The position numbers and the translations under genes are program-made. The notes under the pieces are model-generated. The model searched no databases and had not been told where the DNA came from. It saw only the letters and a list, made by a program, of their open reading frames with translations. DNA of 39,188 nt from Bacteroidales bacterium. Lineage in GTDB: Bacteria; Bacteroidota; Bacteroidia; Bacteroidales; JAAYJT01. This document shows, one piece after another, positions 2,993 through 39,078 of this stretch (position 1 is its first letter; each line of letters opens with the position of its first letter). The stretch covers positions 1 through 39,188 of the forward strand of contig JAAYJT010000001.1 in the NCBI GenBank assembly GCA_012522795.1, written 5' to 3'.

Positions 2993-3140
2993 CAGCCCGT
3001 GTTCTTCAGTAGTTAATTATTTCAAATACAACTTCAAGCCTGCAATTCTATGTTACAATAATTTAATGTTAGCACAAAATGATGTTGTTGTAATCTTTTT
3101 CAGCTTACTTTTAATGTACATTTTTCTCTTCCTTCTCTTT

Positions 3141-6825: not shown

Positions 6826-8481
<1,656 letters not shown>

Positions 8482-10096: not shown

Positions 10097-10624
10097 TTAC
10101 CAATTTACAACTGAACGATTAAAAATATCCTGAACCAGTGCGTCAATTATCTGTTCCATAAGCTGATCTTCAACTTCAGAAAGCGACCGTGAACTTTCAT
10201 ATTCCTCAAAACGCGAAAATGATGCTTCAAAATTTTGTTTTTCATCAAACCGGTTACTATACGAAACCTTTACCGATATTGTAAGCCGGTTTAATGCGGC
10301 AGTTTCATCACCAGTAATTGCAACCGGTTGGGTATTGTAATCACTAATATATCCTTCAAATGTAAGATCACCATTTGCAGATACCTGGCTCAGATTGGTC
10401 TGTGAACTGAACTTATCTCTCAAAGCATCAGTTAGTCGCTGACTTAGCATAGGTTGAACGAGGGGTGCATTATTTATAAATTGCTGAATTGAAATAGTTT
10501 TTGCTTCAGGTGGTATGGAAGCACCAGTAAAAGAATAAACGCCACAAGCCTGCAAGATCGAGATCATGAAAGCAAGTGTGATAAAAGCAATAAGATTGCA
10601 GCCTCTTTTACAGATCAATGTCAT
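10097..10624 (-). CDS. lptE: LPS-assembly lipoprotein LptE (Bacteroidota type)
   Basis: Outer-membrane lipoprotein that plugs LptD during lipopolysaccharide insertion. From the ATG at 10624 the protein is 175 residues, with a short signal peptide and lipobox LQAC (Cys27), then GVYSFTGASIPPEAKTIS and a C-terminal DIFNRSVVNW, all typical of the Bacteroidota family. An ATG at 10708 in the same frame would add 28 polar residues before the signal peptide, inside the upstream gene, and is rejected. The chosen start overlaps the regulator gene by 17 bases, suggesting coupling. Confidence 0.9.
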   Translation of the reverse strand: MTLICKRGCNLIAFITLAFMISILQACGVYSFTGASIPPEAKTISIQQFINNAPLVQPMLSQRLTDALRDKFSSQTNLSQVSANGDLTFEGYISDYNTQPVAITGDETAALNRLTISVKVSYSNRFDEKQNFEASFSRFEEYESSRSLSEVEDQLMEQIIDALVQDIFNRSVVNW

Positions 10625-11837
10625 ATTCTTTGATTTTCCTGTACAAAGTCCTTTCTGAAATACCAAGTTCCTTTGCTGCGTTTCTTCGCCTTCCTCCATG
10701 CTTTTCAAGGGCTTTGGTAATAAGTTCTAATTCTCTTTTCTCAAGCGACAACGATTCTTCTAGTACTTCCGACTCAGCAAGAGGTTCACTGCTAGTATCA
10801 TAGGTATGATGTATACTCATATCAGCAGGATCACGGTCATATATATCGCTTTCGCCAATAAACTTATGTAAGTTTTGCGGAAAATCCTTAGGCCATGTTT
10901 CAGGTTTTCCTCCTGTTTTCATAATTTCGAAAACCAATTTTTTCAGTTCTGTAATGTCGCGACGCATGTCGAAAAGCACTTTGTAAAGTATTTCCCGCTC
11001 AGAAATTTCGGAAAAAGCATTTTCTGACTTATATAAAATCGGCAAATCACGATGCTGCCCTTCAGGAAGATAGTTTAATAAGGTTTGAGCACTTATTTTA
11101 CGATTTTCTTCAATTATAGAAATTTGCTCAGTAATATTTTTTAACTGCCTGATATTTCCATACCAGCGATAATCCCTTAGTATCCGGCGTGCATCTTCAT
11201 CAAGTTCAATAACCGGCATACGGTAGCGTTCAGCAAAATCAGAAGCAAATTTTCTGAATAAAAGTACAATATCATCCTTTCGTTCGCGCAATGGAGGAAT
11301 ATAAATAGGAACTGTATTTAATCTGTAATACAGATCCTGCCTGAATTTTCCTTTTTGAACGTAATCGTTTACATCAACATTAGTTGCAGCTACAATTCTT
11401 ACATCTGTTTTCAGCACTTTTGATGAGCCAACTTTAATGAATTCGCCTGACTCAAGTACCCTTAATAATCTTACCTGAGTAGAATGAGGCAATTCAGCAA
11501 CTTCGTCAAGAAATATTGTACCCTTATTGGCAACTTCAAAATATCCTTTACGAGCTTCATGTGCTCCGGTAAATGATCCTTTTTCATGTCCAAACAACTC
11601 AGAATCAATAGTTCCCTCAGGGATAGCTCCACAATTCACGGCGATATACGGGCCATGTTTACGAGAGCTGAGCTGATGAATGATTTTGGGAAAAACCTCT
11701 TTCCCAACCCCGCTTTCACCGCTAACAAGCACCGAAATGTCAGTAGGTGCCACCTGCCGTGCAATATCAATAGCTCTGTCAAGCAAAGGCGAATTACCTA
11801 TAATCCCAAAACGCTGCTTGATTGATTGAATATCCAT
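10608..11837 (-). CDS. sigma-54 interaction domain transcriptional activator
   Basis: A 409-residue bacterial enhancer-binding protein without a receiver domain. The AAA+ domain is intact: Walker A GESGVGKE (40-47), the sigma-54 contact loop GSFTGA (87-92), Walker B FLDEV (109-113), and arginine fingers in FRQDLYYRLN (165-174). A Fis-type helix-turn-helix ends the protein (RRRNAAKELGISERTLYRK, from about 383). With no sensory domain, activity may be set by partner proteins or by expression. It is the first gene of the lptE-TPR-secG run. This is a useful contrast to the degenerate homologue at 21353-22732. Confidence 0.93.
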   Translation of the reverse strand: MDIQSIKQRFGIIGNSPLLDRAIDIARQVAPTDISVLVSGESGVGKEVFPKIIHQLSSRKHGPYIAVNCGAIPEGTIDSELFGHEKGSFTGAHEARKGYFEVANKGTIFLDEVAELPHSTQVRLLRVLESGEFIKVGSSKVLKTDVRIVAATNVDVNDYVQKGKFRQDLYYRLNTVPIYIPPLRERKDDIVLLFRKFASDFAERYRMPVIELDEDARRILRDYRWYGNIRQLKNITEQISIIEENRKISAQTLLNYLPEGQHRDLPILYKSENAFSEISEREILYKVLFDMRRDITELKKLVFEIMKTGGKPETWPKDFPQNLHKFIGESDIYDRDPADMSIHHTYDTSSEPLAESEVLEESLSLEKRELELITKALEKHGGRRRNAAKELGISERTLYRKIKEYDIDL

Positions 11838-18787: not shown

Positions 18788-21013
18788 TTAACTGTTTTGC
18801 TCGAATTTGTATTTGATATAATCAAGCAGAACCGGCAACTCATCCGTATTAACTCCGTTCCCAGTCAGATAGGGTATATCTTCTTCAAAACCTGTAACAA
18901 ATTGCTTTACAGAATTATCCTTTTGTTTAAGACTCCGTGAATAGCAGTCTATTGCTTTATTTGTTTCGTTCATACATAAAAACACATGGCCTAAATTCAT
19001 GTAATCATATTTGGTAGGCTCATCTTCCATTAATTTTTCATAATAATATTTTGATTCTGAGAGCTTACCATTAACAAACAAACACCATGCAATAGGACGA
19101 AGCACCTTGATATTATTGGGCGAAGCTAATTCAACCTTGTAATAATAATTTAAAGCCTGGCTGAAATCTTTAATATGCAGGTAACAATTGCCTATTGTAA
19201 TAGTAAGATGAATATTTTCGGGATTAATAGCTTCAGCTTCTTTGTATGCAGCGATAGATTCTTCAAACCTCTTCATTGTCCATAGAATACGGGCAATTTT
19301 TCTGAGGTTCCAGACCCTGTTTTCATCAAAAAGTTCAGCTTTACGATAATAAATCAATGCATCATCAAAACGATTCAATTTTTCATAACAATAAGCTATT
19401 TTTTCAAAAATTAGTTGAGAAATATCACCTTTATCTCTGAGTTTCAAATAAATATCCAAAGCGTGTTGGTAATTGTCGCGTTCAAAATAAAAATCCGCAA
19501 AATTTCGCCAAGATGAATCATTGGGTACTATATGCTGCATAAATTCTTTGTTGTGAAAATCAAAACTGCTAATAAAAATATCATCCAGTTCCTGCCTGTC
19601 AGGATGTAGTTTGAAAAAGCGATATAAATCCTGAATATATTGGGTGTAAACAGAATTGATCTTTTTTCGGGAATCCAGAATATTTTCCTCAGCTTCCAAT
19701 TCCCTCATACCTTCCATCTCAGCATTAAACATTTGTGTTACCATTTCCTTCTGTTTCGGTGGTATCATTCCCAGACCAAGGCAAAATGAATACTTATCAG
19801 AATTGCACATGTGCAGCGAAAGGTTCAAACCGGAAACTAAAACCTCTCTGAAATTATCATCTTCGCTTTCAAGTACTTTTTCAATTTCCTTATGATGAAG
19901 ATGAAAAGGAACAAGCCAATTTGATATTTCGTTGAAAAACGGATATTGTTTCAGATTTGAAAACGTACTCATAAAAACATCCATCCCTTCAAGCTGCATA
20001 CGTGTAAGCTCCTCGAGTTTATTAATAAGGTCAGGGCTATCTTCAAACAATTGCTTCCATTTGGGATTTTTATCTTCTGTGTATTCATCTGAAAATATCT
20101 GATCCAAACCCAGTTTATCCTCAAATCCTGGAGCAATCTTGATAATATCCGGCATTATTTCATCGTGCAATTTTTTAGTGACCTTATCAGTATCTTTAGC
20201 TTTCATTAATTGAAATATCACTGCCATGGCATCGAGTTCAAAAAACTCATCACCCTGCATTGCTTTCAGCCGATTTATAACAGAAGGATATAAATACAGG
20301 CGATGATCATAAAAGTATAATCCAAGCAGTAGACCGGTAAATGCACGTTGAGATATTTCCGGAATATTTAAATCATATGCTGTAAAAAGAACTTCAAACC
20401 TGTAAACATCAAAACCTTTAAGCAATCCCATTGTTACTGCACTTACAACGAGACTTTTCTCGTACCACTCTAATTTATCAGAACCTAAAGTGGTAAGAAC
20501 CAAATTTTTATCATTTTCTGATAGTTTAGGTCCAAACCATAACCATAAAAACAAATTAGAGATAAGTTTTTTTCTCGTCTGCTCTCTTCCAAAACCCGCT
20601 TTTTCATCTTCAATTCCGGGTTCAACAAATATATCGCTCAGCTCAGAATCAAATGTAAAGGCTTCAAATAATCCTCTGACAAATTCGCCACTCAGTACTG
20701 ATATACCTTCTGATCTGGTATATAAATTAAAAAATCTGCCGGTTTCAAAAATCTTTTGTTTCATACGGTCAGACAACTCATACAGATTCAGTTTTAAGTC
20801 GGTATAAATTTTCTCCTGTTGCGGATCCTCAACTCCCATAAATTTGTATTTCAACATACTATAATATACATCATTGATCTGCATAAGATTATCGGAAAAG
20901 CCGGAAAAATCAAAAGCCAGGAGCTGAAGGATCTCTATTGCATCCTTCAAACGACTGGTAATCATATAATTATTGAAAGCAGCAAATGTTCTGTCAATTT
21001 CTTTTTTCTGCAT
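18788..21013 (-). CDS. large TPR-repeat protein of unknown function
   Basis: A 741-residue soluble protein. The N-terminal two thirds is helical with no recognised domain. From about residue 520 to 700 there are at least four tetratricopeptide units, for example ALDIYLKLRDKGDISQLIFE, DDALIYYRKAELFDENRVWN and SIAAYKEAEAINPENIHLTI. These mediate protein contacts. No signal peptide is present. A TAAATTTG element on the minus strand (21048-21055) is a plausible -7 box 35 bases before the ATG. Confidence 0.82.
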   Translation of the reverse strand: MQKKEIDRTFAAFNNYMITSRLKDAIEILQLLAFDFSGFSDNLMQINDVYYSMLKYKFMGVEDPQQEKIYTDLKLNLYELSDRMKQKIFETGRFFNLYTRSEGISVLSGEFVRGLFEAFTFDSELSDIFVEPGIEDEKAGFGREQTRKKLISNLFLWLWFGPKLSENDKNLVLTTLGSDKLEWYEKSLVVSAVTMGLLKGFDVYRFEVLFTAYDLNIPEISQRAFTGLLLGLYFYDHRLYLYPSVINRLKAMQGDEFFELDAMAVIFQLMKAKDTDKVTKKLHDEIMPDIIKIAPGFEDKLGLDQIFSDEYTEDKNPKWKQLFEDSPDLINKLEELTRMQLEGMDVFMSTFSNLKQYPFFNEISNWLVPFHLHHKEIEKVLESEDDNFREVLVSGLNLSLHMCNSDKYSFCLGLGMIPPKQKEMVTQMFNAEMEGMRELEAEENILDSRKKINSVYTQYIQDLYRFFKLHPDRQELDDIFISSFDFHNKEFMQHIVPNDSSWRNFADFYFERDNYQHALDIYLKLRDKGDISQLIFEKIAYCYEKLNRFDDALIYYRKAELFDENRVWNLRKIARILWTMKRFEESIAAYKEAEAINPENIHLTITIGNCYLHIKDFSQALNYYYKVELASPNNIKVLRPIAWCLFVNGKLSESKYYYEKLMEDEPTKYDYMNLGHVFLCMNETNKAIDCYSRSLKQKDNSVKQFVTGFEEDIPYLTGNGVNTDELPVLLDYIKYKFEQNS

Positions 21014-21352
21014 TTAACTATTGTTGATAAGTTTGTTAGCTGTTTTCCAAATTTAAACAAAACTAAAGCTTTTTAAAAACAGCCTTTGATTAGTAATTAA
21101 TTGTTACCTGCAAAAATCGTGCTGATAAACTTAACTGACAAAATGTAAGATAAAACATGAGTTTTACTTTATTTCAACCGATATTCTTTCCGGTGGTAAA
21201 CAAAATGATCAATTTTATTTCACGCGTTAACACTTTTAATGATTCTCAATAATGCCAGATAGCAAACAAATATTAATTTAGCGAAACCAAACCATCAACA
21301 ATAAGTCATCATTATTGATAAACCATGGCATGGTCAAAAACACTTTCCAGGT
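21014..21352. other. divergent intergenic region
   Basis: Separates the minus-strand TPR gene from the plus-strand regulator. It holds the -7 element at 21048-21055 (minus) and a 6-1-6 palindrome ACCATG-G-CATGGT at 21322-21334, just before the regulator's start. The palindrome could be an operator or chance. No gene is seen. Confidence 0.4.
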
Positions 21353-22732
21353 ATGAACTCAAAGTCAAATGCCAAAATACTGATCATTGACAACGAAGCC
21401 GATATTCTTCGTAACGCAAAGCTTGTTCTAGACGAGCATTTCAATATGGTTCATATAGAAAATGATCCCAAAAACGTGATAAACCTGCTGCACATTGAGA
21501 AATATGACATTATACTGCTAAACGAAGATTTCTCGCAAAAAGATAAAAATGATACGGAAGGATTTCTATGGCTAAAAAAAATTCTTGAAACCAACCCTTT
21601 TGCCATAGTAATACTGATAGAAGAATATATTAGCATTGATAAGGCTTTGCAGGGAATTAAAGAAGGTGCATCAGAATTCATTTTAAAACCCTGGAATGAT
21701 AAAAAATTGATTGCAACCATTAATGCCAACCTTAAAGCCGGGTTTACAAAAGCAGAGACAGAAAGTACGCCATCAAAAACGAAATCTGATGATCAAACAA
21801 TTGATGATCATGGTATTGTCAGCGAATCGCTTTCAATGCAAAAGGTTTTAACCTTAATCAAAAATGCTGTTAAAAGTGACGATAATATATTGATCACCGG
21901 TGAAAATGGAACTGGAAAAAAGTTTATAGCTCAGTTAATTCATAATATTTCGAACCGAAAGGACAAGGCCTTCATCAATGTTGATTTCAATATCATTGAT
22001 GAAACCCGGTTTGAAAGTGAACTTTATGGATTTGTAAAAGGCGATTTTGGCGATGCCACAGAAGACTATACCGGGCTAATTGAAGCAGCAAATAATGGGA
22101 CTATTTTTTTAAATAAAATTAACAAACTGCCACTTCATCTTCAGACTATGCTTCTAAACACGTTACAAAACCAAAAAGTAGCAAGACTTGGTTCAGAGTT
22201 TGAAATTCCGATAAATATCCGCATAATTTCAGCCTCAAACATACCGATTCATCAGATGGGAGTCAAAGACAAATACAATAAGAGTTTCATTAACCATCTG
22301 AAAACCGTTGAAATAAAATTACCACCGTTAAGAAGCAGGGCTGAAGATATCCCTCGCTTGTCAGAATATTTCCTTAATTATTATTCTAAAAAATACAAAA
22401 CAGGATTCAAAAAAATAAGCAGCTTAACCCTTGATGTGCTTAAAAAATACAACTGGCCCGGAAATATTACTGAATTACAACATGCTGTTGAAAGAGCTGT
22501 AATAATGAGTGAATCAAATATTCTAGAGCCTCATGATTTTTTTCTTCCTCAAACTGACAATAAACACATTGAATCAACACCTCCAACAAGTCTGAATACA
22601 GAAACAACCGAGAAAGCATTGATTGTCAAAACACTTGAAAAATATAGTAATAATATTCGCAAATCAGCTAAAAAGCTTGGAATTACACCAGCAACATTAT
22701 TGCGAAAGATTGAAAAATATGGTTTGGAGTAA
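21353..22732 (+). CDS. degenerate NtrC-like regulator (receiver, AAA+, Fis HTH)
   Basis: A 459-residue protein with the layout of a sigma-54 response regulator but with eroded active sites. The receiver domain (8-125) has Asn57 in LLNEDF where the phosphoacceptor Asp is expected. Its acidic pocket is DN (13-14), while Lys112 is kept. In the AAA+ domain Walker A is GENGTGKK (183-190). The sigma-54 contact loop is GDFGDA (230-235) instead of GAFTGA. Walker B is FLNKI (Asn254, Lys255) instead of FLDEI, and the arginine-finger region reads SFINHLKTV. The Fis-type helix-turn-helix (about 433-459) looks intact. It probably binds DNA without phosphorylation or sigma-54 activation. The reading frame is open throughout, so it is not a simple pseudogene. 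Confidence 0.88.
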   Translation: MNSKSNAKILIIDNEADILRNAKLVLDEHFNMVHIENDPKNVINLLHIEKYDIILLNEDFSQKDKNDTEGFLWLKKILETNPFAIVILIEEYISIDKALQGIKEGASEFILKPWNDKKLIATINANLKAGFTKAETESTPSKTKSDDQTIDDHGIVSESLSMQKVLTLIKNAVKSDDNILITGENGTGKKFIAQLIHNISNRKDKAFINVDFNIIDETRFESELYGFVKGDFGDATEDYTGLIEAANNGTIFLNKINKLPLHLQTMLLNTLQNQKVARLGSEFEIPINIRIISASNIPIHQMGVKDKYNKSFINHLKTVEIKLPPLRSRAEDIPRLSEYFLNYYSKKYKTGFKKISSLTLDVLKKYNWPGNITELQHAVERAVIMSESNILEPHDFFLPQTDNKHIESTPPTSLNTETTEKALIVKTLEKYSNNIRKSAKKLGITPATLLRKIEKYGLE

Positions 22733-22826
22733 AATACAAAACAGGCTTAAAATAACAATGGCATCAATTCCGGAAATTTCCTGATAAAATGGAAACTAAC
22801 ACAAATTGTTCCTGATAGTCTCTAAT

Positions 22827-27218: not shown

Positions 27219-27776
27219 ATGAAACATGAAGCCATGGAAAACCAACAATCCATAATAATCAAACGTATTGTTCTGGATACCGAATTCACTGCTCTTCAAC
27301 AAGATACTCAACTAATTTCACTGGCGCTGGTGACTGATAGTGGAGAAAAATTTTATGCGGTATTTAATGATTTTGATAAGGATAGATGCAATATTTTTGT
27401 CAAAGAAAATGTACTGCCTTTTCTTAATAATAAAGACAGCAATACCATATCAGGTAACACAAACGAAATTGTCATCGCATTAAAAAACTGGCTTTCACAA
27501 TTTGATCAATTCCAACTTCAATTCTGGGCAGATGTTCCTCATTATGACTGGGTGCTTTTTTGCGAACTGTTTGGAGGATCATTGAAGTTGCCACCAAACA
27601 TCCATTTTATGTGCCTGGATATTGCCACTCTCCTGATGGCAAGCGGATTTAATTACCAAACCGAGCGAATCCGGATATTACAACATTTAGGCTTGAAAGG
27701 AGAGTTTCAAATACATAATTCCCTAAGCGATGCCGAACTTGGAATGATACTTTTACAAAACCTTCTAAAAATATAG
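27219..27776 (+). CDS. DEDDh 3'-5' exonuclease linked to the CorA effector
   Basis: A 185-residue protein of the DnaQ-like exonuclease fold, closest in pattern to the Rv2179c/DUF5051 exoribonucleases. The four acidic residues and the histidine are visible: VLDTEF (Asp20, Glu22), WADVPHYDW (Asp104 or Asp109) and HNSLSDAELG (His165, Asp170). It is the first gene of the operon, four bases before the corA frame. In related type III systems a phosphodiesterase beside corA degrades the signal molecule. That role is a reasonable inference here, but an RNase or ancillary nuclease role is equally open. An ATG at 27234 is an alternative start. Confidence 0.82.
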   Translation: MKHEAMENQQSIIIKRIVLDTEFTALQQDTQLISLALVTDSGEKFYAVFNDFDKDRCNIFVKENVLPFLNNKDSNTISGNTNEIVIALKNWLSQFDQFQLQFWADVPHYDWVLFCELFGGSLKLPPNIHFMCLDIATLLMASGFNYQTERIRILQHLGLKGEFQIHNSLSDAELGMILLQNLLKI

Positions 27777-27780
27777 TATT

Positions 27781-28215
27781 ATGTACAGCTATCATATTTT
27801 TCTGTTTCCATTCAACTGGTCTTTTGAAAAAAATGAAAATGAACTTTTTGAGAAACAGGTGGCATTAACGAATATAGTACCAGACAGGCTCTCCAACTGG
27901 ATTCGTATGACCGTTCCCGGTACAGAGCGGGAAATAAGAGAGCTTTATGATGAGCAAAACTATTATTATGACTTTGTTCATGATGTGTTGTACGACAATG
28001 GACAAGATACAACCATAGTAAAGCATTACGAACGTAAGGAACTGAAAGATGAAAACTCTCGGCTTACGTTCAACATTGAAGTGCGGGACAAAAAAACCTA
28101 CCGCTTGAAAATTGATGACATAGCCCTTAACTTTTATAGTACTGGGGTTGGTACCCTGATTTTCTATCTTAGAAATGAAAATGAGGATCAAAAAGAGCTC
28201 TCCGATATCAAATAA
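27781..28215 (+). pseudogene. corA: CRISPR-associated CorA-like effector, N-terminal part, ends at an in-frame TAA
   Basis: This 144-codon frame encodes the start of the cytoplasmic domain of a type III-B CorA-like effector (MYSYHIFLFPFNWSFEKN, later NFYSTGVGTLIFYL). It ends at TAA 28213-28215. The same frame then continues without frameshift as INQFGRRIMPPFIEDVD into the C-terminal part, so together they look like one protein of about 479 codons cut by one nonsense codon. It could be a recent inactivating mutation, a sequencing error, readthrough, or a true split gene. It lies four bases after the exonuclease gene. Confidence 0.72.
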
Positions 28216-28239
28216 ATTAATCAGTTTGGAAGGCGCATC

Positions 28240-29217
28240 ATGCCGCCATTTATTGAAGATGTGGATAAACGATTTGAAACAGCCGAACGGGTTTATATTG
28301 ATGGATTATGGGGCGGGAGTCCATATGATGAAGACTTTAATGACTATAGCCGGCATTTGGAATCATGGAAGCCGGCTTCATATATTTTACAGCTGATAGA
28401 AGATTTTTCACCTGAACTGCAAATCAAACCGGTGATAGACGATCGGATGATAGTGAACTGTTGGTATGCCAATGATCAGTTGTCTAAGCGTATCAAAACC
28501 GATTATGAGAAATTTCTTCAAAGTGACGACTGGTATTCGTTTGTCTTTATTGATTCAACAGATCCTACTTGTCAAAACGATAAATTTTGCAAACGCATCA
28601 TAAAAAAAGCTACCAATCCACGCTGGCAAAATTATGGTGTCCTATATGCTATAACCCGCTATTCAATGGTATCGCTTGGTGCTGAGGAATGGTTCTATCA
28701 AACCATCATATGTAAGCATATGCGAACCTTATATACTCGTATGCTTGAGTTGGTGCTATTACAACGCTCGTCCCGCTTGCGTTTTTCTGCCGAAATAACG
28801 AAAGTGGGGGCCATGAAAAAAGCCGAACATCACAGAATAGCAGACCATATCAGCTCGCTTTATAAAGAATATATGCTGTTTATGAATCAGATATATTTCC
28901 GTGAAGTAACTTCACAGGATCAAGGTATAGAATTTTACCAATTATTTTTGGAACAATTTGGGTGTACCAATCAAATTTCCGACCTGGAAGAAGAATTGGG
29001 TGAACTGCATAATTATTATCATTTGCTGTTGGGACAAAAACGAAATAAAAACGCCGAAATACTGAATATTATTGCAGCCACCTTATTACCGGCTTCTTTG
29101 TTGACTGCCATTTTTAGTTTGTCCAAACCACCAATACATAAGGGACTGCAAGTATTATTTATCGGTTTAGTTATAGTCTTTTTTTATTTTAACACCAAAC
29201 GTATCTTAAAAAAATAA
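28240..29217 (+). CDS. corA: CRISPR-associated CorA-like membrane effector, C-terminal part
   Basis: A 325-codon frame starting at an ATG 24 bases after the TAA that closes the preceding frame, in the same phase. It has a long helical stalk (about 150-270) and two C-terminal membrane segments (about 274-294 and 301-319) in the CorA arrangement. The segment between them reads LSKPP, without the Gly-Met-Asn signature of magnesium channels, as expected for CRISPR-linked CorA proteins. GGAAGG (28228-28233) lies six bases before the ATG and could allow reinitiation. Known relatives respond to a nucleotide messenger such as SAM-AMP and disrupt the membrane. Whether this split form works is unknown. 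Confidence 0.75.
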   Translation: MPPFIEDVDKRFETAERVYIDGLWGGSPYDEDFNDYSRHLESWKPASYILQLIEDFSPELQIKPVIDDRMIVNCWYANDQLSKRIKTDYEKFLQSDDWYSFVFIDSTDPTCQNDKFCKRIIKKATNPRWQNYGVLYAITRYSMVSLGAEEWFYQTIICKHMRTLYTRMLELVLLQRSSRLRFSAEITKVGAMKKAEHHRIADHISSLYKEYMLFMNQIYFREVTSQDQGIEFYQLFLEQFGCTNQISDLEEELGELHNYYHLLLGQKRNKNAEILNIIAATLLPASLLTAIFSLSKPPIHKGLQVLFIGLVIVFFYFNTKRILKK

Positions 29218-29221
29218 AATT

Positions 29222-29635
29222 ATGGAATCTAATGAAATTTACACTCTTATTAAGTATTCACTGTGTTTAATCTTTATACTATTCACAGTGGTTTATATTC
29301 TTAAGCCGTGGCTTCAACATTGTTTCGTTCAATGGCAAAAGAAACTTGATTTTAAGCAAAAAAAAGAAATGGAATACCAACTGTTAGCAATGTCAAAAGT
29401 AAAAGTTGAAAACCAGGAAATAGTTAAACTTAAAGGCGAAAATGAAAAATTTAAAGAAAAAATTGAAGAACTTGAAAAAGCACTAGAGCAAGAGCATGAA
29501 AGCTTTAATCGTACAGCACTTATCTATAAATTGCTTCAAATTAATAGCGAACTGACAGCCGACAAAATAAAAAAGCATCAAAAAGAGATTGGGGATATTT
29601 TTGAAAACCTAGATAAAATTGTAAACAAAAAGTAA
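29222..29635 (+). CDS. one-TM coiled-coil protein in the CRISPR operon, unknown function
   Basis: A 137-residue protein that I do not recognise. One membrane segment (about residues 10-28, SLCLIFILFTVVYILKPWL) is followed by a basic stretch (QKKLDFKQKKEMEYQ) and a long charged heptad-like region (about 55-95, KLKGENEKFKEKIEELEKAL) that should form a coiled coil. A short helical tail follows. It sits four bases after corA and five before cmr1, so it is in the operon. A partner or anchor for the CorA effector is a hypothesis from position and topology only. Confidence 0.75.
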   Translation: MESNEIYTLIKYSLCLIFILFTVVYILKPWLQHCFVQWQKKLDFKQKKEMEYQLLAMSKVKVENQEIVKLKGENEKFKEKIEELEKALEQEHESFNRTALIYKLLQINSELTADKIKKHQKEIGDIFENLDKIVNKK

Positions 29636-29640
29636 GCACC

Positions 29641-31065
29641 ATGTATAAACTTGAATTCACACTAAAGCAACACACACCCCTTATCCACTTCCAGCATTAC
29701 CAAGAAGGTGCAACCCTACGGGCAACAGAAGTGAAACCTAAACTAGATAGGTTTATTATTGAGAAACTTACTGGGAAGTCCGGTAAAGAAGCATTTGAAG
29801 TTTTCAAAGCAAATGCTGAATGGAGAAAGTGGCTTGTGGGAAAAGGTGAGCATCCTGCTTTGGATTATAAGATGAGGATAATTTCAAAATCTGAAAATAG
29901 GTATTTCTTACCATTAGCTATGACTCCAAATACAAGAAAGTATAATAATAGAGAAAATAAATTAAAAGAACATATAAAAAACTCAATTAACATAGATGTT
30001 GAATTATTAACTTCAACAGCTTTCTTTGCTAATCAAGATAAGTTTTCATTTAGATTCAACGAAGTTGATACTATAAAAACTAAATGCTCTAATATGCAAT
30101 TTGCAGTATTACAAAAGTCCTTAGATTTAGTTATTTTAAGCAGGTTAGAGGACAACTTTAAAAATCAAATAGAAAAATTAATAAAAGATTTTTTTGCATT
30201 ATATAATTTTGGAATGCGGAGTAGTAAGGGATTTGGCTCTTTTTCAATTAATGATAAAAATAATCAAAACAAAAATAGTTTTGAAGAATCATTAAAATCT
30301 ACTTTTGATGTTGTTTTTAAATACAATAATAACATTATAAATAACTTTAAATCTGCACTTCAAAAAGCAAACGAATTAAACAATTTAATAAGATCTGGCA
30401 AAAATCATGGTGGCTATTCAAAATCGTTATTATTCCTCTACTTTGTAAATCAATCAACTCCTATAAGATGGGAAAAAAGGAAAATCAAACAAAATATCAA
30501 TAGCAATAAACTCAAATACAAAAAATCAGATAATAATTTAATAGATATTGACTTAAAATACACTCATAAACCGATTTATGATGATTCTAATAATAATTGG
30601 ATAGATATTCCAAATAAATTTGAATATAGATACATTAGATCCTTACTTGGACTCAATGAAGTATTTGAATTTCAAACTAATGAAATTATTGATACAATCG
30701 GAGGGGGACCAAAAAAAATCAAACATACATATATAGTTGAAGTTAAATCTAACAACGTAATTCAAAGAATTACTTCTCCATTAATTTGGAAATACAACGG
30801 AACTAATCTGTATCTGTGTGCAAATGATATAAATCCAGATATACTAAACTCAAGCAATAATTCTGTAACATATAATTTCGACTTGAAATTAAAAAAGAAC
30901 AATAAATTAATTGACAGACCTTTTGCTAATAGAGATGATTTTCTGAAGAATATAGCTGCACCTAATTCATTCAATATAGGAAAATTTTTAGAATATTGTT
31001 TTATAAAATGTAATAAAACTGAAAAAATTAGTGGATTTACACAAATAAAAAATAATTTAATCTAA
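29641..31065 (+). CDS. cmr1: type III-B CRISPR RAMP protein Cmr1
   Basis: RAMP subunit near the 3' end of the crRNA in the Cmr effector complex. The N-terminus (LKQHTPLIHFQHYQEGATLR, residues 8-27) is the Cmr1 pattern of Bacteroidota. The glycine-rich loop GMRSSKGFGSFSIN (191-204) is typical of RAMP domains. The C-terminal half is Lys/Asn-rich and poorly conserved. The 474-residue length is normal to long. Base composition is uneven: about 40% GC over the first 120 bases, falling below 20% in parts of the body (for example 29941-30000). The next gene starts 5 bases after the stop. Confidence 0.86.
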   Translation: MYKLEFTLKQHTPLIHFQHYQEGATLRATEVKPKLDRFIIEKLTGKSGKEAFEVFKANAEWRKWLVGKGEHPALDYKMRIISKSENRYFLPLAMTPNTRKYNNRENKLKEHIKNSINIDVELLTSTAFFANQDKFSFRFNEVDTIKTKCSNMQFAVLQKSLDLVILSRLEDNFKNQIEKLIKDFFALYNFGMRSSKGFGSFSINDKNNQNKNSFEESLKSTFDVVFKYNNNIINNFKSALQKANELNNLIRSGKNHGGYSKSLLFLYFVNQSTPIRWEKRKIKQNINSNKLKYKKSDNNLIDIDLKYTHKPIYDDSNNNWIDIPNKFEYRYIRSLLGLNEVFEFQTNEIIDTIGGGPKKIKHTYIVEVKSNNVIQRITSPLIWKYNGTNLYLCANDINPDILNSSNNSVTYNFDLKLKKNNKLIDRPFANRDDFLKNIAAPNSFNIGKFLEYCFIKCNKTEKISGFTQIKNNLI

Positions 31066-31070
31066 AACTA

Positions 31071-32696
31071 ATGAGAACAACATACACCGCCCTTACCATA
31101 GGCCCCATATTCGACACAATTTCAAGAGCAAAACGCACCCGAAGTATTTGGGCAGCAAGCTACTTCTTCTCCATGGTTATTAAAGAAATCCTAAGAAGTA
31201 TGATTAATTCAGGCAAAAAGGATAAGATCATATTACCATTTAGAGAAGATATATATGATTCTAATTATGGTTCTGGGCTTTATGCCGATCGCTTGTACTT
31301 TAAAGGTATAACCAAAGATGAACTACAAAATGCAGTAAACACACAAATCGAATTTTTTGCAGATGATTTTTATAATCAAAATATTTGTACTAAAAATGAA
31401 GCACTTTCATTTCTTAATAAATACATGAATCTGCATATAGTTGAGTTTACTCTAACTAATGATGAACTGGAAACAATCAAAGCTTCGATAGATACCAATG
31501 GATTGTCAAACAATTCTGTTCTGAAAATATTAAATCAATTACTGGACAATAAAGAGCTAAATAAGCGTTATGTTTTTGATTTTGACAATGATTATATCAT
31601 TGACTATTTATCTTTGAAATGGAGTGCCAACACAGCTCTTAAAATAAATGCTTTTTCTCAAAATAGTGGCAGATATTTTACCTCTATAGGAGAGATTGCA
31701 ACAGTTGACCTGAAAGAGAAGTACAAGAATGAATATTCAGCGGCTCTACAAAAAGATTTTAAAAACGATGACCTCGAATTTATTGATGAACTTAGCAAGA
31801 CAAAAAAGAAAGATGCTGACGGTAAAGATGTTTCAATTATTGAAGATTACCACAAGTATTATGCTGTACTTTATGCAGATGGAGATAATATAGGTGATTT
31901 ATTACGGAGCGTGGCCAATGATGATGTCGCGCTTCAAACATTTTCCAAACTATTGTTGGATTTTGGCTTAAAAGCTGAGGAAACTATCGCCAACTTTGGC
32001 GGTAGTGGTATATATCTGGGTGGTGAAGATATTTTTGCTTTTTTACCTATTGCAAATAAGGCCGACGATCAAATTAAGACCCTAGCTGAATTGATTAAAA
32101 ACCTCGATAAAGACTTTAATGATACATTAGTGCAGTATGCTAAAAAGATTGGTAATATAAAAACCCCAACATTGTCCTATGGAATTATGCTATCCTACTA
32201 TAAATTTCCTATGCAGGAAGCCATGAGTCAGGCTTATGAGCAGTTGGAAATTTGTAAAAAAAACAGAAACTTATTTCCAGATAAAAATGGCATTGCCATT
32301 CGTTTCCAAAAACACAGTGGTAGTTTTATGGAATGTTATATTGATAAAAATAAATGGAAATCTTCAATTTTGGTATACCGTTTACTTACCCGGCACTTAA
32401 ACGCTCCTGACAAAAAGGATATCTTAAATGGACTAATTCAACGATTGAGAGATGGAGTGTTCTTTTCTACATTTATGGAAGCTGTTAGAAACAATCAAAT
32501 TGATGCTTTTTTCGAAAACTTCTTTAATGAGGCAATACATCAGAAAAAACAATCTTTTACAGATTTTTTTAAAGAATTAGTCAAAGTCCAGAAAGATGAT
32601 TACTTAATGCAAAATCCGACTGATAAAGAAGAAGAAAATATTCGGCTACGCGATATATTGTTTACGGTATTACGCTATTATAAGTTTGTTAAATAA
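31071..32696 (+). CDS. cmr2: Cas10/Cmr2 without HD domain, type III-B
   Basis: Large subunit of the Cmr complex and expected source of the nucleotide second messenger. The cyclase-like palm has YADGDNIG (268-275) and GGEDIFAFLP (317-326), a GGDD-type motif in GGED form. The N-terminus starts directly in the palm-like or linker region (TYTALTIGPIFDTISRAKRT). No HD nuclease motif and no cysteine zinc-binding set are seen, consistent with its short 541 residues. This fits systems that rely on signalling rather than on Cas10 DNase activity, as in CorA-linked relatives. The first 110 bases are much richer in GC than the rest. Confidence 0.9.
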   Translation: MRTTYTALTIGPIFDTISRAKRTRSIWAASYFFSMVIKEILRSMINSGKKDKIILPFREDIYDSNYGSGLYADRLYFKGITKDELQNAVNTQIEFFADDFYNQNICTKNEALSFLNKYMNLHIVEFTLTNDELETIKASIDTNGLSNNSVLKILNQLLDNKELNKRYVFDFDNDYIIDYLSLKWSANTALKINAFSQNSGRYFTSIGEIATVDLKEKYKNEYSAALQKDFKNDDLEFIDELSKTKKKDADGKDVSIIEDYHKYYAVLYADGDNIGDLLRSVANDDVALQTFSKLLLDFGLKAEETIANFGGSGIYLGGEDIFAFLPIANKADDQIKTLAELIKNLDKDFNDTLVQYAKKIGNIKTPTLSYGIMLSYYKFPMQEAMSQAYEQLEICKKNRNLFPDKNGIAIRFQKHSGSFMECYIDKNKWKSSILVYRLLTRHLNAPDKKDILNGLIQRLRDGVFFSTFMEAVRNNQIDAFFENFFNEAIHQKKQSFTDFFKELVKVQKDDYLMQNPTDKEEENIRLRDILFTVLRYYKFVK

Positions 32697-32708
32697 AAAA
32701 TAGTCAAC

Positions 32709-33767
32709 ATGTGCAAATATCAGATATTATTAACTCCTGTAGAAGCCTATTTTTTTGGTGGAGAGAAGCATTCAAAAAGCCAGCAAGGCATTGTGATGGA
32801 TTACTTTGTTCGATCAGAACTTTATCCTCAGCAAACAACTTTACTTGGCGTGTTGAGATATTACCTTTTAATGAAAAACCAATGCCTTAATCCCCAAAAA
32901 ATAGGTAAAACTAACGAAGCAAATCAATTAATTGGAAAAATTAGTTTCTCCTATGCAAATTCAGGTGAAGAACAAGGATTTGGTAAGATTAAAAAAATTT
33001 CACCACTCTATTTTGAAAAAAAACACTCCTGTTTTTATAAAGAAAACCAAAAATATCTTATTCCACCTCTTGACAATCAATTTAGGCTTAAGAAAGAATA
33101 TGGAGAATACTTGTTAGAAGGCTATGATGCAAAAAAAGGATATCCATCTGTACTGATGAATATCGTCGATAATGATTCAGTGGTAGATTTTTTTAAAGAT
33201 GTAAATAAATCACCTGATTCCGATTTTGTATTCTTACAAGTTGACACTGTAGGTAATAAAAAAGGATTAAAAGGGAAATCTGTAGATGACGGATTTTATA
33301 AACAAGTAAGGTATAAATTGAATACAGACTGGTATTTTTCTTTTGAAGCTGAGATTGATAAAAAATTAGCTGAAGAAAAACAATTTGTGACTTTTGGTGC
33401 TGAAAAACAATTATTCACCCTTAAAATTAAACAAATTAAGGAATTTACAGAATTAAAGCTACCCTTATCTGATAGGGGTTTACCTGCTATATTTTGTGTA
33501 TCAGACTGTTTTATTAAGGAAGATATATGGGATTATGTAACATTTGCCGTTAACGAGAACATATCTTTCCGAAACTTACAAAGTTCTAATACGAGTCAAA
33601 ACTATAGTAGCTTCTCAAAAGGCTACAACCGTAGTAAACGCTATAATCTTTTAAAAAGAGGTAGCGTGCTGTATTTTGAAAATGAGGTGAAAAGAAATAA
33701 CGCAATTGCATTGTTTTCAAATACAAATTCAGAAAACATTGGTTTTAACAGAATTCAAACATTTTAA
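32709..33767 (+). CDS. cmr3: type III-B CRISPR RAMP protein Cmr3
   Basis: Cmr3 binds the 5' handle of the crRNA next to Cas10. The N-terminus LLTPVEAYFFGGE (7-19) is the family signature. LYPQQTTLLGVLRYYLL follows as the first RAMP helix. The C-terminal part has SFSKGYNRSKRYNLLKRGSVLYF, near the usual glycine-containing loop. The 352-residue length is normal. It lies 12 bases after cas10 and 11 before cmr4. Confidence 0.86.
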   Translation: MCKYQILLTPVEAYFFGGEKHSKSQQGIVMDYFVRSELYPQQTTLLGVLRYYLLMKNQCLNPQKIGKTNEANQLIGKISFSYANSGEEQGFGKIKKISPLYFEKKHSCFYKENQKYLIPPLDNQFRLKKEYGEYLLEGYDAKKGYPSVLMNIVDNDSVVDFFKDVNKSPDSDFVFLQVDTVGNKKGLKGKSVDDGFYKQVRYKLNTDWYFSFEAEIDKKLAEEKQFVTFGAEKQLFTLKIKQIKEFTELKLPLSDRGLPAIFCVSDCFIKEDIWDYVTFAVNENISFRNLQSSNTSQNYSSFSKGYNRSKRYNLLKRGSVLYFENEVKRNNAIALFSNTNSENIGFNRIQTF

Positions 33768-33778
33768 AAAAGACTATA

Positions 33779-34606
33779 ATGGAGACACAAGCTTATTTAA
33801 TTCAATGCATTACAAATATGCATGTTGGCAGTGGTGATGCCACTTATGGTATCATTGACAAAATGGTGCAACGAGATCCTGTTACCAATTATCCGACTAT
33901 TCATGCCTCCAGCTTGAAAGGTGCATTGCGTGAACGGTTCGAGAAAGTCTGGGAGAATGACTTATCAAAAGTTAATGAAATATTTGGAAAAAAAACAGAT
34001 AATGATCAGGATGCAGAAAGCGGAAATTGTAATTTCCTGAATGCTGATTTATTGGCATTGCCGGTTCGTTGCACGCACAAGCAGTTTGCACTCAGTTTAT
34101 GTCCACAAAGTATTGAGTTTATCAATAAAAAAGCGAAGTTATTGCTTGATAAAGAAATTATAAAATCACCAACTACTCATGATAAACTGTTTACCAATGA
34201 TAGTGTGGATGATATTTATATTGAAGATGATCAACTGGGGCCCGCATCTCACAGCCCTTTATTAGAGAATGATATATCTATTGATGATTTTGATGCCTTC
34301 AATCAACAATATGCTATAGTTGAAGATACAAAATTTGATAATTATACTGCAAATTTACCTGTAATAGCCCGCAACCGTTTGGGGAAAGATAAAAATTTAT
34401 GGTATGAAGAGGTTGTGCCGCATCAGTCTGTTTTTATAACCAATTTTATTCCGGGGCCAAGTATAAATAAAAATGTTTTTGATAATTTTTTAGCAGAATT
34501 AAAACAAAATATTTTTCAAATTGGGGCTAATAGCAGTGTGGGTTTTGGTCTTTGTAAGTTTTATAAAGTGAGTGTTGAATATAATAAAAAAGAAAATCAT
34601 GAATAA
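33779..34606 (+). CDS. cmr4: type III-B CRISPR RAMP protein Cmr4 (target RNA cleavage)
   Basis: Backbone subunit, present in several copies per complex, that cuts target RNA every six nucleotides. The N-terminus has HVGSGDATYG, then IIDKMVQRD with Asp27 at the position of the catalytic aspartate of known Cmr4 proteins. IHASSLKGALRERFE follows, and a C-terminal glycine loop reads GANSSVGFGLCKF. The 275-residue length is typical. The last bases overlap the start of cmr5 (ATGAATAA), so translation is probably coupled. Confidence 0.93.
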   Translation: METQAYLIQCITNMHVGSGDATYGIIDKMVQRDPVTNYPTIHASSLKGALRERFEKVWENDLSKVNEIFGKKTDNDQDAESGNCNFLNADLLALPVRCTHKQFALSLCPQSIEFINKKAKLLLDKEIIKSPTTHDKLFTNDSVDDIYIEDDQLGPASHSPLLENDISIDDFDAFNQQYAIVEDTKFDNYTANLPVIARNRLGKDKNLWYEEVVPHQSVFITNFIPGPSINKNVFDNFLAELKQNIFQIGANSSVGFGLCKFYKVSVEYNKKENHE

Positions 34607-34985
34607 TATTCAAGAATATATACCAATTGCTCTGGAAGTTTTGGCTGAACAAGATTTAGGTATTGTCAGAAAAGGGAAAATCAATAAAACCTATAATGGC
34701 TATATTTCATCTTTTGGTGCCAGTATCATTACATCAGGGCTTTTACCGACTATGGTGTTTTATTCAAAAAGCACCGGAGGTGAGGAAGATGCTAATAGGA
34801 GTTTAATATTGAAAGCAATTGAAAAAATGCTTAAACATCAAAACATAGCAATATTTAACACGAATCAACAGTTGCTGAAAGAAATAATCACACGGTACAA
34901 TGACAGAAGGTTGAAGAAAAAAATTGAAGAGTGTGCTATTGCACTAAAATTAGGAATGCGTACTTATCCAATGACTAAAAATTAA
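34599..34985 (+). CDS. cmr5: type III-B small subunit Cmr5
   Basis: Small all-helical subunit forming the belly filament of the Cmr complex. The 128-residue sequence has the typical opening EYIPIALEVLAEQ and the segment TYNGYISSFGASIITSGLLPTMVFYSK matching the family. It ends with MRTYPMTKN. The ATG at 34599 overlaps the cmr4 stop. An in-frame ATG at 34572 would add nine codons within cmr4 and is less likely. Confidence 0.88.
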   Translation: MNNIQEYIPIALEVLAEQDLGIVRKGKINKTYNGYISSFGASIITSGLLPTMVFYSKSTGGEEDANRSLILKAIEKMLKHQNIAIFNTNQQLLKEIITRYNDRRLKKKIEECAIALKLGMRTYPMTKN

Positions 34986-34990
34986 CGGCT

Positions 34991-35887
34991 ATGGAATGGA
35001 AAAATATGGACACACCCAATTTAGGCCTTTTGGTATACAAAAAACTTTATACGGAAGAGGCGATAAAAAGTTTGATTAAATATCAGCCGGCTTTGTCCGC
35101 AAGATCAGACGAAAAGGAAAGGCTTTATATTGATATTGCTAAAGATGCAAAAACGACTCCCTTTGACCCGTTCTACAAGGCAGTTTTTGATCAGAAATTA
35201 GAATCAACATACAAAATCATAAATCCTGTGGCCACACATCATATACTGTTGCAAACAACTTATCCTGGTTTGTTAATAGGCTCAGGATATACACACGATA
35301 GCAATGCAAAAGGTGATTTAAAGATTGGTTTCTATTTTGATCACACTACAGGACAACCAGTTATACCAGGTAGCTCTGTAAAGGGTGTGTTTAAGAGTGT
35401 ATTTGAAAACGAAGATTACAAAACAGATGAAAAATCTTTAAGAACCATTAGGTTTATTATTGATGAAATAATTAACAAAGAAGATGGTGATACAGAATTA
35501 AAAGAAGAATGGACTAATATTAAGGTCAGCTTTAGTGTTGAGATTTTAAAACACCTAAAAGATACTTTATTCGGGACACAAAATGATGAAGGGGTCGACA
35601 TATTTTTTGATGCTGTTATTAATATAGCCCAAACAGGTGAAAAAAAATATATTGGGAGTGACTTTATTACTCCTCATGAGCACCCACTTAAAAATCCGAA
35701 TCCGCTTATGCTTTTAAAAGTATTGCCTGGTGTAGTTTTTGAGTTTAGATTTAAACTGAAAGATTATAGTAATGGCACATTTAAATTAACTGCAAACCAA
35801 AAACTCAAACTTTTCCGGCAAATCCTTCTCACAATCGGCATAGGCGCTAAAACCAATGTCGGTTACGGGCAGTTTGACCCCGTTTGA
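34991..35887 (+). CDS. cmr6: type III-B CRISPR RAMP protein Cmr6
   Basis: RAMP subunit that caps the Cmr backbone with Cmr1. Residues 125-138 read IPGSSVKGVFKSVF, the conserved RAMP helix motif. ITPHEHPLKNPNPLMLLKVLPG and the C-terminal glycine loop IGAKTNVGYGQFDPV follow the Cmr6 pattern. The 298-residue length is normal. It starts five bases after cmr5. GC content rises sharply in the last 80 bases and stays high through the next gene. Confidence 0.88.
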   Translation: MEWKNMDTPNLGLLVYKKLYTEEAIKSLIKYQPALSARSDEKERLYIDIAKDAKTTPFDPFYKAVFDQKLESTYKIINPVATHHILLQTTYPGLLIGSGYTHDSNAKGDLKIGFYFDHTTGQPVIPGSSVKGVFKSVFENEDYKTDEKSLRTIRFIIDEIINKEDGDTELKEEWTNIKVSFSVEILKHLKDTLFGTQNDEGVDIFFDAVINIAQTGEKKYIGSDFITPHEHPLKNPNPLMLLKVLPGVVFEFRFKLKDYSNGTFKLTANQKLKLFRQILLTIGIGAKTNVGYGQFDPV

Positions 35888-35903
35888 TTCATTAGCTGCA
35901 GTT

Positions 35904-36662
35904 ATGCCTCCCGGAATTGAAATACACAGCCTGTTGTTGCCTGATTTGAAATTTGCAAATCGGGAAAAATTTTTATATCTGCGTAAGCAGTTTGTGATAG
36001 AACCGGCCTTGCGACATCACGATTTTTTCAGCAGAAAGGGCGGAAATGCCTCACATTTTCACAAGCGTACGGAGGATACCGGCTTTGGTGTGCCTTTGAT
36101 ACACTGTCTGGATTATAACAATGTATTTTGTCTGCGGGCATATGGAGCGCATGCAATACAAACCTTAAAGCTTTGGCAGGAATGGGCAGGGGCGGTTTAT
36201 CCGCATATGATGCAGTCAGTTGCCTCCATGTCAGAAAGCTATTTGTTGGGGCATACGGATGAGCCTGTATTTTATGGCTCAAGCAACTATATTCCTTTTA
36301 ACAACTGTATTCGGGTTGACGGCTGTTTTGCAGATGCCGACAGACTGTCGAATGAAGTGGCACCAATGCTTCAAAACCGTCTCATTGGCAATTTACGCAC
36401 TTTTTTGAAGAATATCGGACTGGATGACCGTGGCATGCACACCATATTTAAGTTGCAGCAATATCCTGCTGAGGGAAGAAGCTATGCCGCCTTGCTAAAA
36501 GACGAAATCATTCGTAAAACTGCTTTTGAAGTAGTGGTGCAGACCAATCTGCAGTTGCCGCTTTTTTTCTCCCTCGGTCAGAATGTAGGATACGGCTGTG
36601 GATTGTTTGAAAGAGTGATGAAAAAGTCACAAAATCAAGTAAGAAATATTAATGTATTTTGA
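35904..36662 (+). CDS. cas6: Cas6-like RAMP endoribonuclease (crRNA processing)
   Basis: A 252-residue protein placed after cmr6, the usual position for the crRNA-processing nuclease. A C-terminal glycine-rich loop (FFSLGQNVGYGCGLFE) marks it as a RAMP, and the middle has FYGSSNYIPFNN and LIGNLRTFLKNIG. Several histidines (for example RHHDFF) could be catalytic, but none can be assigned. Sequence identity to characterised Cas6 cannot be judged by eye. The ATG at 35904 is favoured. An earlier ATG at 35856 overlaps cmr6 by 32 bases. Its GC content (about 47% in 36061-36120) differs from most other cas genes here. Confidence 0.68.
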   Translation: MPPGIEIHSLLLPDLKFANREKFLYLRKQFVIEPALRHHDFFSRKGGNASHFHKRTEDTGFGVPLIHCLDYNNVFCLRAYGAHAIQTLKLWQEWAGAVYPHMMQSVASMSESYLLGHTDEPVFYGSSNYIPFNNCIRVDGCFADADRLSNEVAPMLQNRLIGNLRTFLKNIGLDDRGMHTIFKLQQYPAEGRSYAALLKDEIIRKTAFEVVVQTNLQLPLFFSLGQNVGYGCGLFERVMKKSQNQVRNINVF

Positions 36663-36757
36663 GATAGAGTTAACTATTTAACGATCTTAAATGCTCATAG
36701 AAGATGAAGTAACCCGATTAGTTTATAGTTTGAAAACAATTATAAAATTCAAACCTG

Positions 36758-37801: not shown

Positions 37802-37808
37802 AATTAAA

Positions 37809-38807: not shown

Positions 38808-39078
38808 CATAGAAAAAAACAGTTTACGCAAGAAGATAGCTGATCTGTTACTTTATCATGGTTATATAAGGATACAGCTTTCAGTGTTTGCTGGAAATAT
38901 CAATCCTGAAAAACTCCACCTTTGGAAAAAGATATCATTGCTGATGAAAACCGAAGAAAACGATAAGGTATACTGTTTGAAAATAAATGACGATCATTTT
39001 CGGAATATAAAAAAAATTGGTACTTTTGACGCAGATATAGAGTTTATTCTGGGTACCAGAAAAAGTATGATTTTTTAG
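38788..39078 (+). CDS. cas2: CRISPR adaptation protein Cas2
   Basis: Small ferredoxin-fold protein that bridges Cas1 dimers. The start at 38788 gives 96 residues, MYLIFYDIEKNSLRKKIADL, with the conserved Asp7 after the first strand. YIRIQLSVFAG and the C-terminal EFILGTRKSMIF fit the family. An ATG at 38770 would add six residues and break the usual short N-terminus before the first strand. It overlaps the 3' end of cas1. Confidence 0.92.
   Translation: MYLIFYDIEKNSLRKKIADLLLYHGYIRIQLSVFAGNINPEKLHLWKKISLLMKTEENDKVYCLKINDDHFRNIKKIGTFDADIEFILGTRKSMIF

Follow-up and report, generated by a model that had tools for sequence, protein, structure and literature searches.

Genomic Context of the Regulator Gene

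The window, i.e., the whole stretch of DNA analysed (39,188 bases), is contig C8 of a 100-contig, 2.88-Mb assembly, which we read as Bacteroidota from its named relatives. The preliminary description of this DNA had reported a full-length frame for an NtrC-like regulator, and this was confirmed: the frame is open throughout from ATG to TAA and encodes 459 amino acids (Table 1). Response_reg, Sigma54_activat, AAA_lid_14 and HTH_8 each exceeded the Pfam cut-off in the protein, and the domain order (receiver, PF00158 AAA+, lid and Fis-type HTH) matches the NtrC-family layout. A sigma-54 gene is present in the genome; PF00158 is matched strongly by four other proteins (222-238 bits) and weakly in four more cases. 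The regulator at 10608-11837, which had been named as an intact paralogue, is without a receiver domain. The nearest intact paralogue is encoded on contig C47, at 39% identity, with a kinase gene beside it. Rfam and tRNA searches gave no match.

Table 1. Features of the regulator locus, with positions in the window.
Feature	Position	Strand	Details	Basis
Orphan NtrC-family response regulator	21353..22732	+	catalytically eroded, 459 aa	ORF, Pfam, alignment
Receiver domain	21371..21736	+	residues 7-128; D57N, D14N, T90E; Asp13 and Lys112 kept	
AAA+ core	21812..22327	+	residues 154-325; Walker A kept; L1 GDFGDA; Walker B FLNKINK; arginine fingers lost	
AAA+ lid	22328..22543	+	residues 326-397; only domain still conserved, yet sensor II Arg373 is Thr	
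Fis-type HTH	22589..22729	+	residues 413-459; fold recognisable; recognition helix R446P, Y450L, R452K	
Divergent intergenic region	21014..21352	.	between TPR gene and regulator; exporter genes of G002 gone from here	
TPR protein gene	18788..21013	-	left anchor of the gene order common to G002 and G001	
Rearrangement junction	22733..22826	.	kinase gene absent; followed by DUF2147, DUF4837 and LysM genes	

Gene order was compared in three genomes of the family, all from one genus: the window genome (G000), G001 and G002. In G002 (contig C25, L121), next to the TPR gene stand an ABC ATPase, an FtsX/MacB permease, two ORFs, an intact regulator and a histidine kinase gene that overlaps the regulator gene, and then nitroreductase-like, M28-peptidase-like and PhoH-like genes; the ATPase, permease and kinase were identified by Pfam, and the last three genes were named by eye. 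In G001, the TPR gene leads directly to the nitroreductase-like, M28-peptidase-like and PhoH-like genes, with no module at this place. In the window, only the eroded regulator comes next to the TPR gene, ahead of genes of another locus: the DUF2147, DUF4837 and LysM genes, which lie together elsewhere in both G002 and G001. The nitroreductase and M28 genes of the window genome are found on contig C31. Three genomes of the same genus thus show three states: a complete module, a stranded eroded regulator and no module.

A kinase gene lies directly 3' of the regulator in all 36 intact orthologues checked, and it is absent after the window copy. The best kinase in the window assembly was a paralogue at 34% and the best permeases were paralogues at 36%, all on contig C47, while no kinase or exporter remnants were found within the window. 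The exporter and the kinase are thus missing, with the regulator left behind. Identity to G002 is 59% for the TPR protein and 53% for the regulator, whose alignment with its positional orthologue contains a single internal gap, two residues long.

In a FastTree phylogeny, the window copy and the G002 copy were not immediate neighbours (support 0.66, long branch), and orthology was based on gene order and on the excess of shared codons instead. With codon usage allowed for, 120 codons are identical with G002 in the regulator versus 95.8 expected (z 3.4), compared with 155 versus 126.1 (z 3.5) in the other sigma-54 regulator and z values from -0.25 to 2.4 in five other genes. Fourfold-site identity with G002 was 50% in the regulator and 21-35% in the five other genes. 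Horizontal gain or recent conversion was considered and set aside, as the excess of identical codons, once codon usage is counted, resembles that of the other sigma-54 regulator, though it exceeds that of the five other genes. Vertical descent, as these sequence comparisons suggest, was taken for the window regulator. A scan of genome contigs with patterns derived from the window copy gave nothing above 44% identity in the best 80 of 150 loci, and a plasmid search reached at best 38.5% identity among the matches listed.

Loss of Catalytic Residues

The regulator was aligned with 86 relatives at 38-53% identity to the window copy. Of these, 76 were drawn from 103 listed matches (one of them the window copy itself) and 10 came from other searches; 26 listed matches, all at 41-44% identity, were left out of the set.

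Fifteen residues were taken as textbook positions for receiver and AAA+ function, and nine of them are lost in the window copy. In the receiver, the phospho-acceptor D57 is replaced by Asn, as is the second Asp of the acidic pocket (D14N), and T90 is replaced by Glu. In the AAA+ core, the family L1 loop GAFTDA reads GDFGDA (T233G), Walker B changes from FLDEIGN to FLNKINK (D254N, E255K) and the arginine-finger stretch from FRQDLLYR to YNKSFINH (R309N, R315H). Sensor II changes from GNIREL to GNITEL (R373T). All 86 relatives retain the Asp pair, D57, T90, the Walker B DE, the L1 Thr, the finger arginines and the sensor II Arg. Because the motifs are intact in every relative, the losses are not a family trait, and family-wide degeneracy was ruled out. 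Chance or a misreading of the motifs was ruled out as well, since the aligned positions are unambiguous.

The losses of the phospho-acceptor (Asn57), of the Walker B DE (to NK) and of the arginine fingers given in the preliminary description were all seen in this alignment. Its statement that every catalytic motif is eroded holds for the nine residues above and goes too far for the rest: Walker A (GxxGxGK) survives as GENGTGK, and sensor I Asn296, receiver Asp13 and Lys112, and L1 Phe232 are also kept. Similarly, the L1 Thr is indeed lost, but the change was not from GAFTGA, because the relatives carry GAFTDA or a close variant.

With D14N, D57N and T90E, the receiver lacks residues that a phosphorylatable response regulator has, despite the kept Asp13 and Lys112; key active-site residues are gone and no partner kinase gene adjoins it, as in pseudo-receivers and atypical orphan regulators. 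The GAFTGA-like L1 loop with the Thr that serves sigma-54 contact is missing, and so are the Walker B acidic pair, the arginine fingers and the sensor II Arg required for ATP hydrolysis. The Walker A motif is present, and the protein may bind nucleotide. As had been proposed, activation dependent on phosphorylation, ATPase activity or sigma-54 should therefore all be dead in the window copy, judging from the residues lost.

An AlphaFold2 model of the window copy had a mean pLDDT of 76.2, compared with 71.2 for the intact orthologue. The best structural matches of the model were NtrC1, NtrX and NtrC4 (Z about 31, rmsd 14-17), and VpsR was also among them (7v2b, Z 27.1, rmsd 21.4 over 365 residues). 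The modelling result is weak evidence because the alignment carries the family fold.

Rate of Change and Selection

The window copy has changed about 7-10 times faster than its G002 orthologue. Against the same 57-member core, which spans many families of the order, the G002 copy had a mean identity of 78% with 0 of 201 invariant columns changed, versus 50% and 73 of 201 for the window copy. Unique changes against four outgroups numbered 140-150 in the window copy and 15-21 in the G002 copy. The speed-up is specific to this regulator, because the neighbouring sigma-54 regulator (10608-11837) and its counterpart in G002 share 81% identity. A uniformly fast genome was ruled out by the 59-81% identity to G002 of the other genes of the contig.

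The pattern of change was compared with a neutral simulation, in which the G002 gene was mutated until as many conserved columns had changed as in the window copy (100 of 264). Between 10.4 and 11.0 stops were expected and none is present in the window copy; no stop-free run was obtained in 200 runs in each of two settings, nor in further sets of 400 and 3000. An internal start giving a Fis-like product was set aside as an explanation, since residues 1-325 are also stop-free with 7.4 stops expected. The replacements were more conservative than neutral ones, with a mean BLOSUM62 score of 0.07 versus -0.59±0.17 (P 0.003), and less conservative than those of nine distant intact relatives (0.33-1.18). 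The lid was clearly protected, with 5 of 36 conserved positions changed versus 13.6-13.7 expected neutrally (P 0.0007). The remaining domains changed about as in the neutral runs: 27 of 74 conserved positions versus 28.0 in the receiver, 51 of 116 versus 43.9 in the AAA+ core and 15 of 34 versus 12.9 in the HTH. Ten strongly hydrophobic conserved positions had turned polar, versus 13.2±3.0 under neutrality (P 0.2) and 0-6 in the nine distant intact relatives. With such changes about as frequent as under neutrality, a stable fold can only be presumed.

The nine catalytic losses compare with 5.8±1.8 under full neutrality, which is not a significant excess (P 0.07). Full neutrality is, however, limited by the open frame. 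Were 25 of these 100 changes at conserved sites neutral, an absence of stops would have a probability of 0.05-0.08, and 25 neutral changes cost 1.5 catalytic residues on average and at most 5 in 1000 runs. The absence of stops thus caps the neutral share at about one quarter, and therefore the catalytic residues went while selection still held the frame open; the simulation does not separate steady weak selection from selection that ended recently.

A branch codon model with ten sequences gave w of 0.11 on the window branch and rejected both w = 1 (2dlnL 13.8) and the background w (2dlnL 27), the latter with a branch length that ran into its upper bound. These values are rough because synonymous sites are near saturation, and our own estimate, which is a judgement rather than a computed value, is w of 0.1-0.3 for this branch. 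Overall, the gene has neither the stops and frameshifts nor the wholly neutral pattern of a pseudogene, though part of the pattern is neutral-like. The earlier view that this is not simple decay is upheld by the 0 stops versus 10.4 expected and by catalytic losses beyond the allowed neutral share. Intact orthologues together with neutral evolution of this copy had been named as the finding that would speak for decay; the first part was found, as the orthologues do have intact motifs, but the evolution of the window copy is not plainly neutral.

DNA-Binding Domain and Putative Operator

The HTH domain is recognisable in the window copy (HTH_8, 37.3 bits versus a cut-off of 22). It had been described as intact, which does not agree with the alignment, where 10 of the 25 family-invariant HTH positions are changed. 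These include, in the recognition helix, R446P, at a position that is Arg in all 86 near relatives, and Y450L, at one that is Tyr in 85 of 86. The Arg446 column aligns with Arg85 of Fis (numbering assigned by hand), which is described as essential for DNA binding by Fis (PMC7145599). Proline occurs in this column in 11 of the 118 sequences of a wider alignment, all of them distant (L055, L061, L066, L068, L071, L080, L086, L088, L103, L105 and L110).

A putative operator was found upstream of intact orthologues as an inverted repeat with the consensus TTGTnCG-N4-CGaACAA. In 17 of 37 upstream regions the score was at least 19 of 22, versus 0.1 expected from single-base shuffles, an enrichment that is partly by construction, as these regions also served to derive the consensus. 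Among the 37, L004 is a paralogue from the window genome itself and L151 was wrongly cut (its contig starts at the gene); both lie below the threshold. The copy in G002 (L121:9814-9831) is 134 bases upstream of the regulator start. The putative operator also occurs upstream in L014, L019, L146 and others, and some upstream regions have the tighter TTGTACAA in place of the consensus.

Upstream of the window gene (21014..21352), the best operator score was 16, which is at chance level, with none above the shuffles. Whole-genome scans for exact copies gave none in the window genome, none in G001 and one in G002. Scans allowing one mismatch gave fewer matches than the reversed control in each genome (2 versus 7 in G000, 9 versus 18 in G002 and 5 versus 8 in G001), and therefore only the exact site upstream of the G002 regulator was used. 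Sigma-54 promoters scoring at least 13 of 15 were not found in the upstream regions of the window gene and its relatives; scattered scores of 12 were seen.

The window copy thus has neither the ancestral recognition helix nor a match to the inferred operator upstream. The proposal that its DNA-binding function was kept is not borne out, since the recognition Arg is now Pro, the HTH has changed at about the neutral level and the inferred operator was found neither upstream nor as an exact copy in the genome. Likewise, the altered helix and the missing operator argue against competition at ancestral operators, and the suggested role as a repressor or competitor of paralogues finds no operator of the inferred type upstream of the gene and no exact copy in the genome.

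Comparison with Known Regulators

The closest comparison is the G002 regulator, the positional orthologue at 53% identity with the same domains, which differs from the window copy in its intact catalytic motifs, the inferred operator and the adjoining kinase and exporter genes. Among described proteins, VpsR of Vibrio cholerae resembles the window copy in combining a receiver with an AAA+ domain in which GAFTGA is broken. It is described as working at sigma-70 promoters without need for phosphorylation or ATP, with its conserved Asp used in phosphate sensing (PMC10274813), and as binding c-di-GMP according to the title of structure entry 7v2b. Unlike VpsR, the window copy has lost the Asp, along with Walker B, the two arginine fingers and the Arg of the recognition helix.

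Rhodobacter capsulatus NtrC, HupR, TyrR, DhaR, VpsR and Caulobacter NtrC are listed as NtrC-like regulators whose GAFTGA is not functional and which act at sigma-70 promoters (PMC10274813, PMC3162934). The first four are similar to the window copy in deriving from sigma-54 activators and having lost the L1 motif, but they are described as working regulators, whereas the window receiver is predicted to be dead; R. capsulatus NtrC is reported to still require phosphorylation and ATP binding (PMC10274813). FleQ of Pseudomonas aeruginosa has a phosphorylation-incompetent receiver on a bEBP and, in contrast to the window copy, is described as an active ATPase with the arginine finger and the sensor II Arg kept (PMC10723142). 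HP1043 of Helicobacter pylori is likewise an orphan with a degenerate receiver, but it is described as OmpR/PhoB-type and essential, while the window protein is NtrC-type. In a review, several percent of receivers are counted as pseudo-receivers, and orphans make up 18 of the 20 atypical regulators from bacteria that are described there (PMC12632262). Since NtrC-like regulators without GAFTGA and pseudo-receivers have already been published, the kind is known. Among the titles and abstracts that searches of an open library listed, none described a regulator with this whole set of losses.

Origin and Possible Fate of the Regulator

The data are best explained by a stranded, kinase-less regulator, catalytically dead as far as its sequence tells, whose frame has been kept under weakened but non-zero selection; we give this reading a probability of about 0.6. 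The regulator would have belonged to a two-component system located beside, and probably controlling, a MacB/FtsX-type ABC exporter. By gene order, the exporter cluster and the histidine kinase are gone from the locus. Without the kinase, the constraint on the switch and motor parts would have vanished. According to the simulation, most of the change probably came while truncation was still selected against, and the lid and the general chemistry of the residues appear to have stayed constrained. The outcome would be a folded, possibly ATP-binding protein that neither hydrolyses ATP nor can be phosphorylated. Its remaining role may be at most weak and non-canonical, such as binding DNA or a partner with changed specificity, and its course could lead toward a new minor function or toward loss, as at the G001 locus. 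Only tentatively, selection may have kept the protein as a full-length scaffold in which the lid is protected best, acting through protein contacts or altered DNA binding and not as an activator.

Plain decay, with the gene as an unselected pseudogene in the making whose frame is open by luck, would agree with the loss of the kinase and exporter, with the whole module being missing at the locus in G001 of the same genus, and with the near-neutral change of the receiver, AAA+ core, HTH and hydrophobic positions. The catalytic losses also lie near the neutral expectation (9 of 15 versus 5.8±1.8, P 0.07). This account is nevertheless rather unlikely, as it has to accommodate 0 stops where 10.4 are expected. 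Even a neutral share of 25% leaves a probability of only 0.05-0.08 for no stop and accounts for 1.5 catalytic losses (maximum 5 in 1000 runs), not 9. The protected lid (P 0.0007), the conservative replacements (P 0.003) and the alignment with the G002 copy, with its single two-residue gap, speak against it as well. An assembly or binning artefact, i.e., a foreign or chimeric piece in the draft assembly, is highly improbable: the change of downstream neighbours at 22733-22826 could mark a misjoin, but upstream gene order agrees with G002 and G001, the shared-codon excess (z 3.4) is within the range of the other contig genes (-0.25 to 3.5), and a misassembly does not yield dozens of in-frame replacements and no stop.

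Two further accounts overlap with the stranded regulator favoured here. The protein could have been repurposed as a DNA binder independent of phosphorylation and sigma-54, a repressor or competitor of sigma-54 activators, as originally suggested. The frame was kept while catalysis was lost, the HTH fold is recognisable, and VpsR, R. capsulatus NtrC, Caulobacter NtrC and FleQ are described as acting at sigma-70 promoters or without phosphorylation. This is unlikely, given that R446P takes away the counterpart of Fis Arg85 (though Pro stands there in 11 of 118 sequences, distant ones), that the HTH is not protected (15 of 34 versus 12.9) and that the inferred family operator was not found upstream of the gene, with no exact copy in the genome. 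It is very unlikely that the protein acts as a dominant-negative partner, joining hexamers of the C47 paralogue through receiver or lid surfaces and poisoning them. No part is better conserved than the lid, Walker A is kept and an intact paralogue with an adjoining kinase gene exists in the same genome, but identity to that paralogue is only 39%, and changes have hit the arginine fingers and a large part of the AAA+ core.

Although orphan regulators and pseudo-receivers are common, how they arise is difficult to observe. The three states of this locus let one ask in which order a two-component system is dismantled, and they bear on whether a kinase-less regulator is recruited or simply lost. 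The window regulator is a small natural example of the fate of a signalling protein whose partner vanishes, and binding could be tested directly with the operator inferred from its intact orthologues.

Other Features of the Window

A mevalonate pathway cluster lies at 2027-6467 (-), with genes for a GHMP kinase, a diphosphomevalonate decarboxylase-like protein and HMG-CoA reductase. It is followed at 6826-8469 (-) by the gene of a Cpn60/TCP-1-family chaperonin, which has a short 9-base tandem repeat (6832-6861) at its 3' end.

Downstream of the regulator, a type III-B CRISPR-Cas locus occupies 27219-39078 (+). It encodes a DEDD-type nuclease, a CorA-like protein, Cmr1, Cas10, Cmr3, a RAMP protein, Cmr5, a second RAMP protein, a weakly Cas6-like ORF (below the Pfam cut-off), a reverse transcriptase, Cas1 and Cas2, with the contig end just past Cas2. 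The CorA-like protein (27781-29217, +) is split into two ORFs that share a reading frame and are separated by a stop, 27781-28215 covering profile positions 6-129 and 28240-29217 covering positions 142-436, and represents either two subunits or a broken gene. The reverse transcriptase (36758-37801, +), located between the Cas6-like gene and Cas1, matched best with stand-alone defence or retron-type models, below the NCBIfam cut-offs, and not with Cas1-linked reverse transcriptases.
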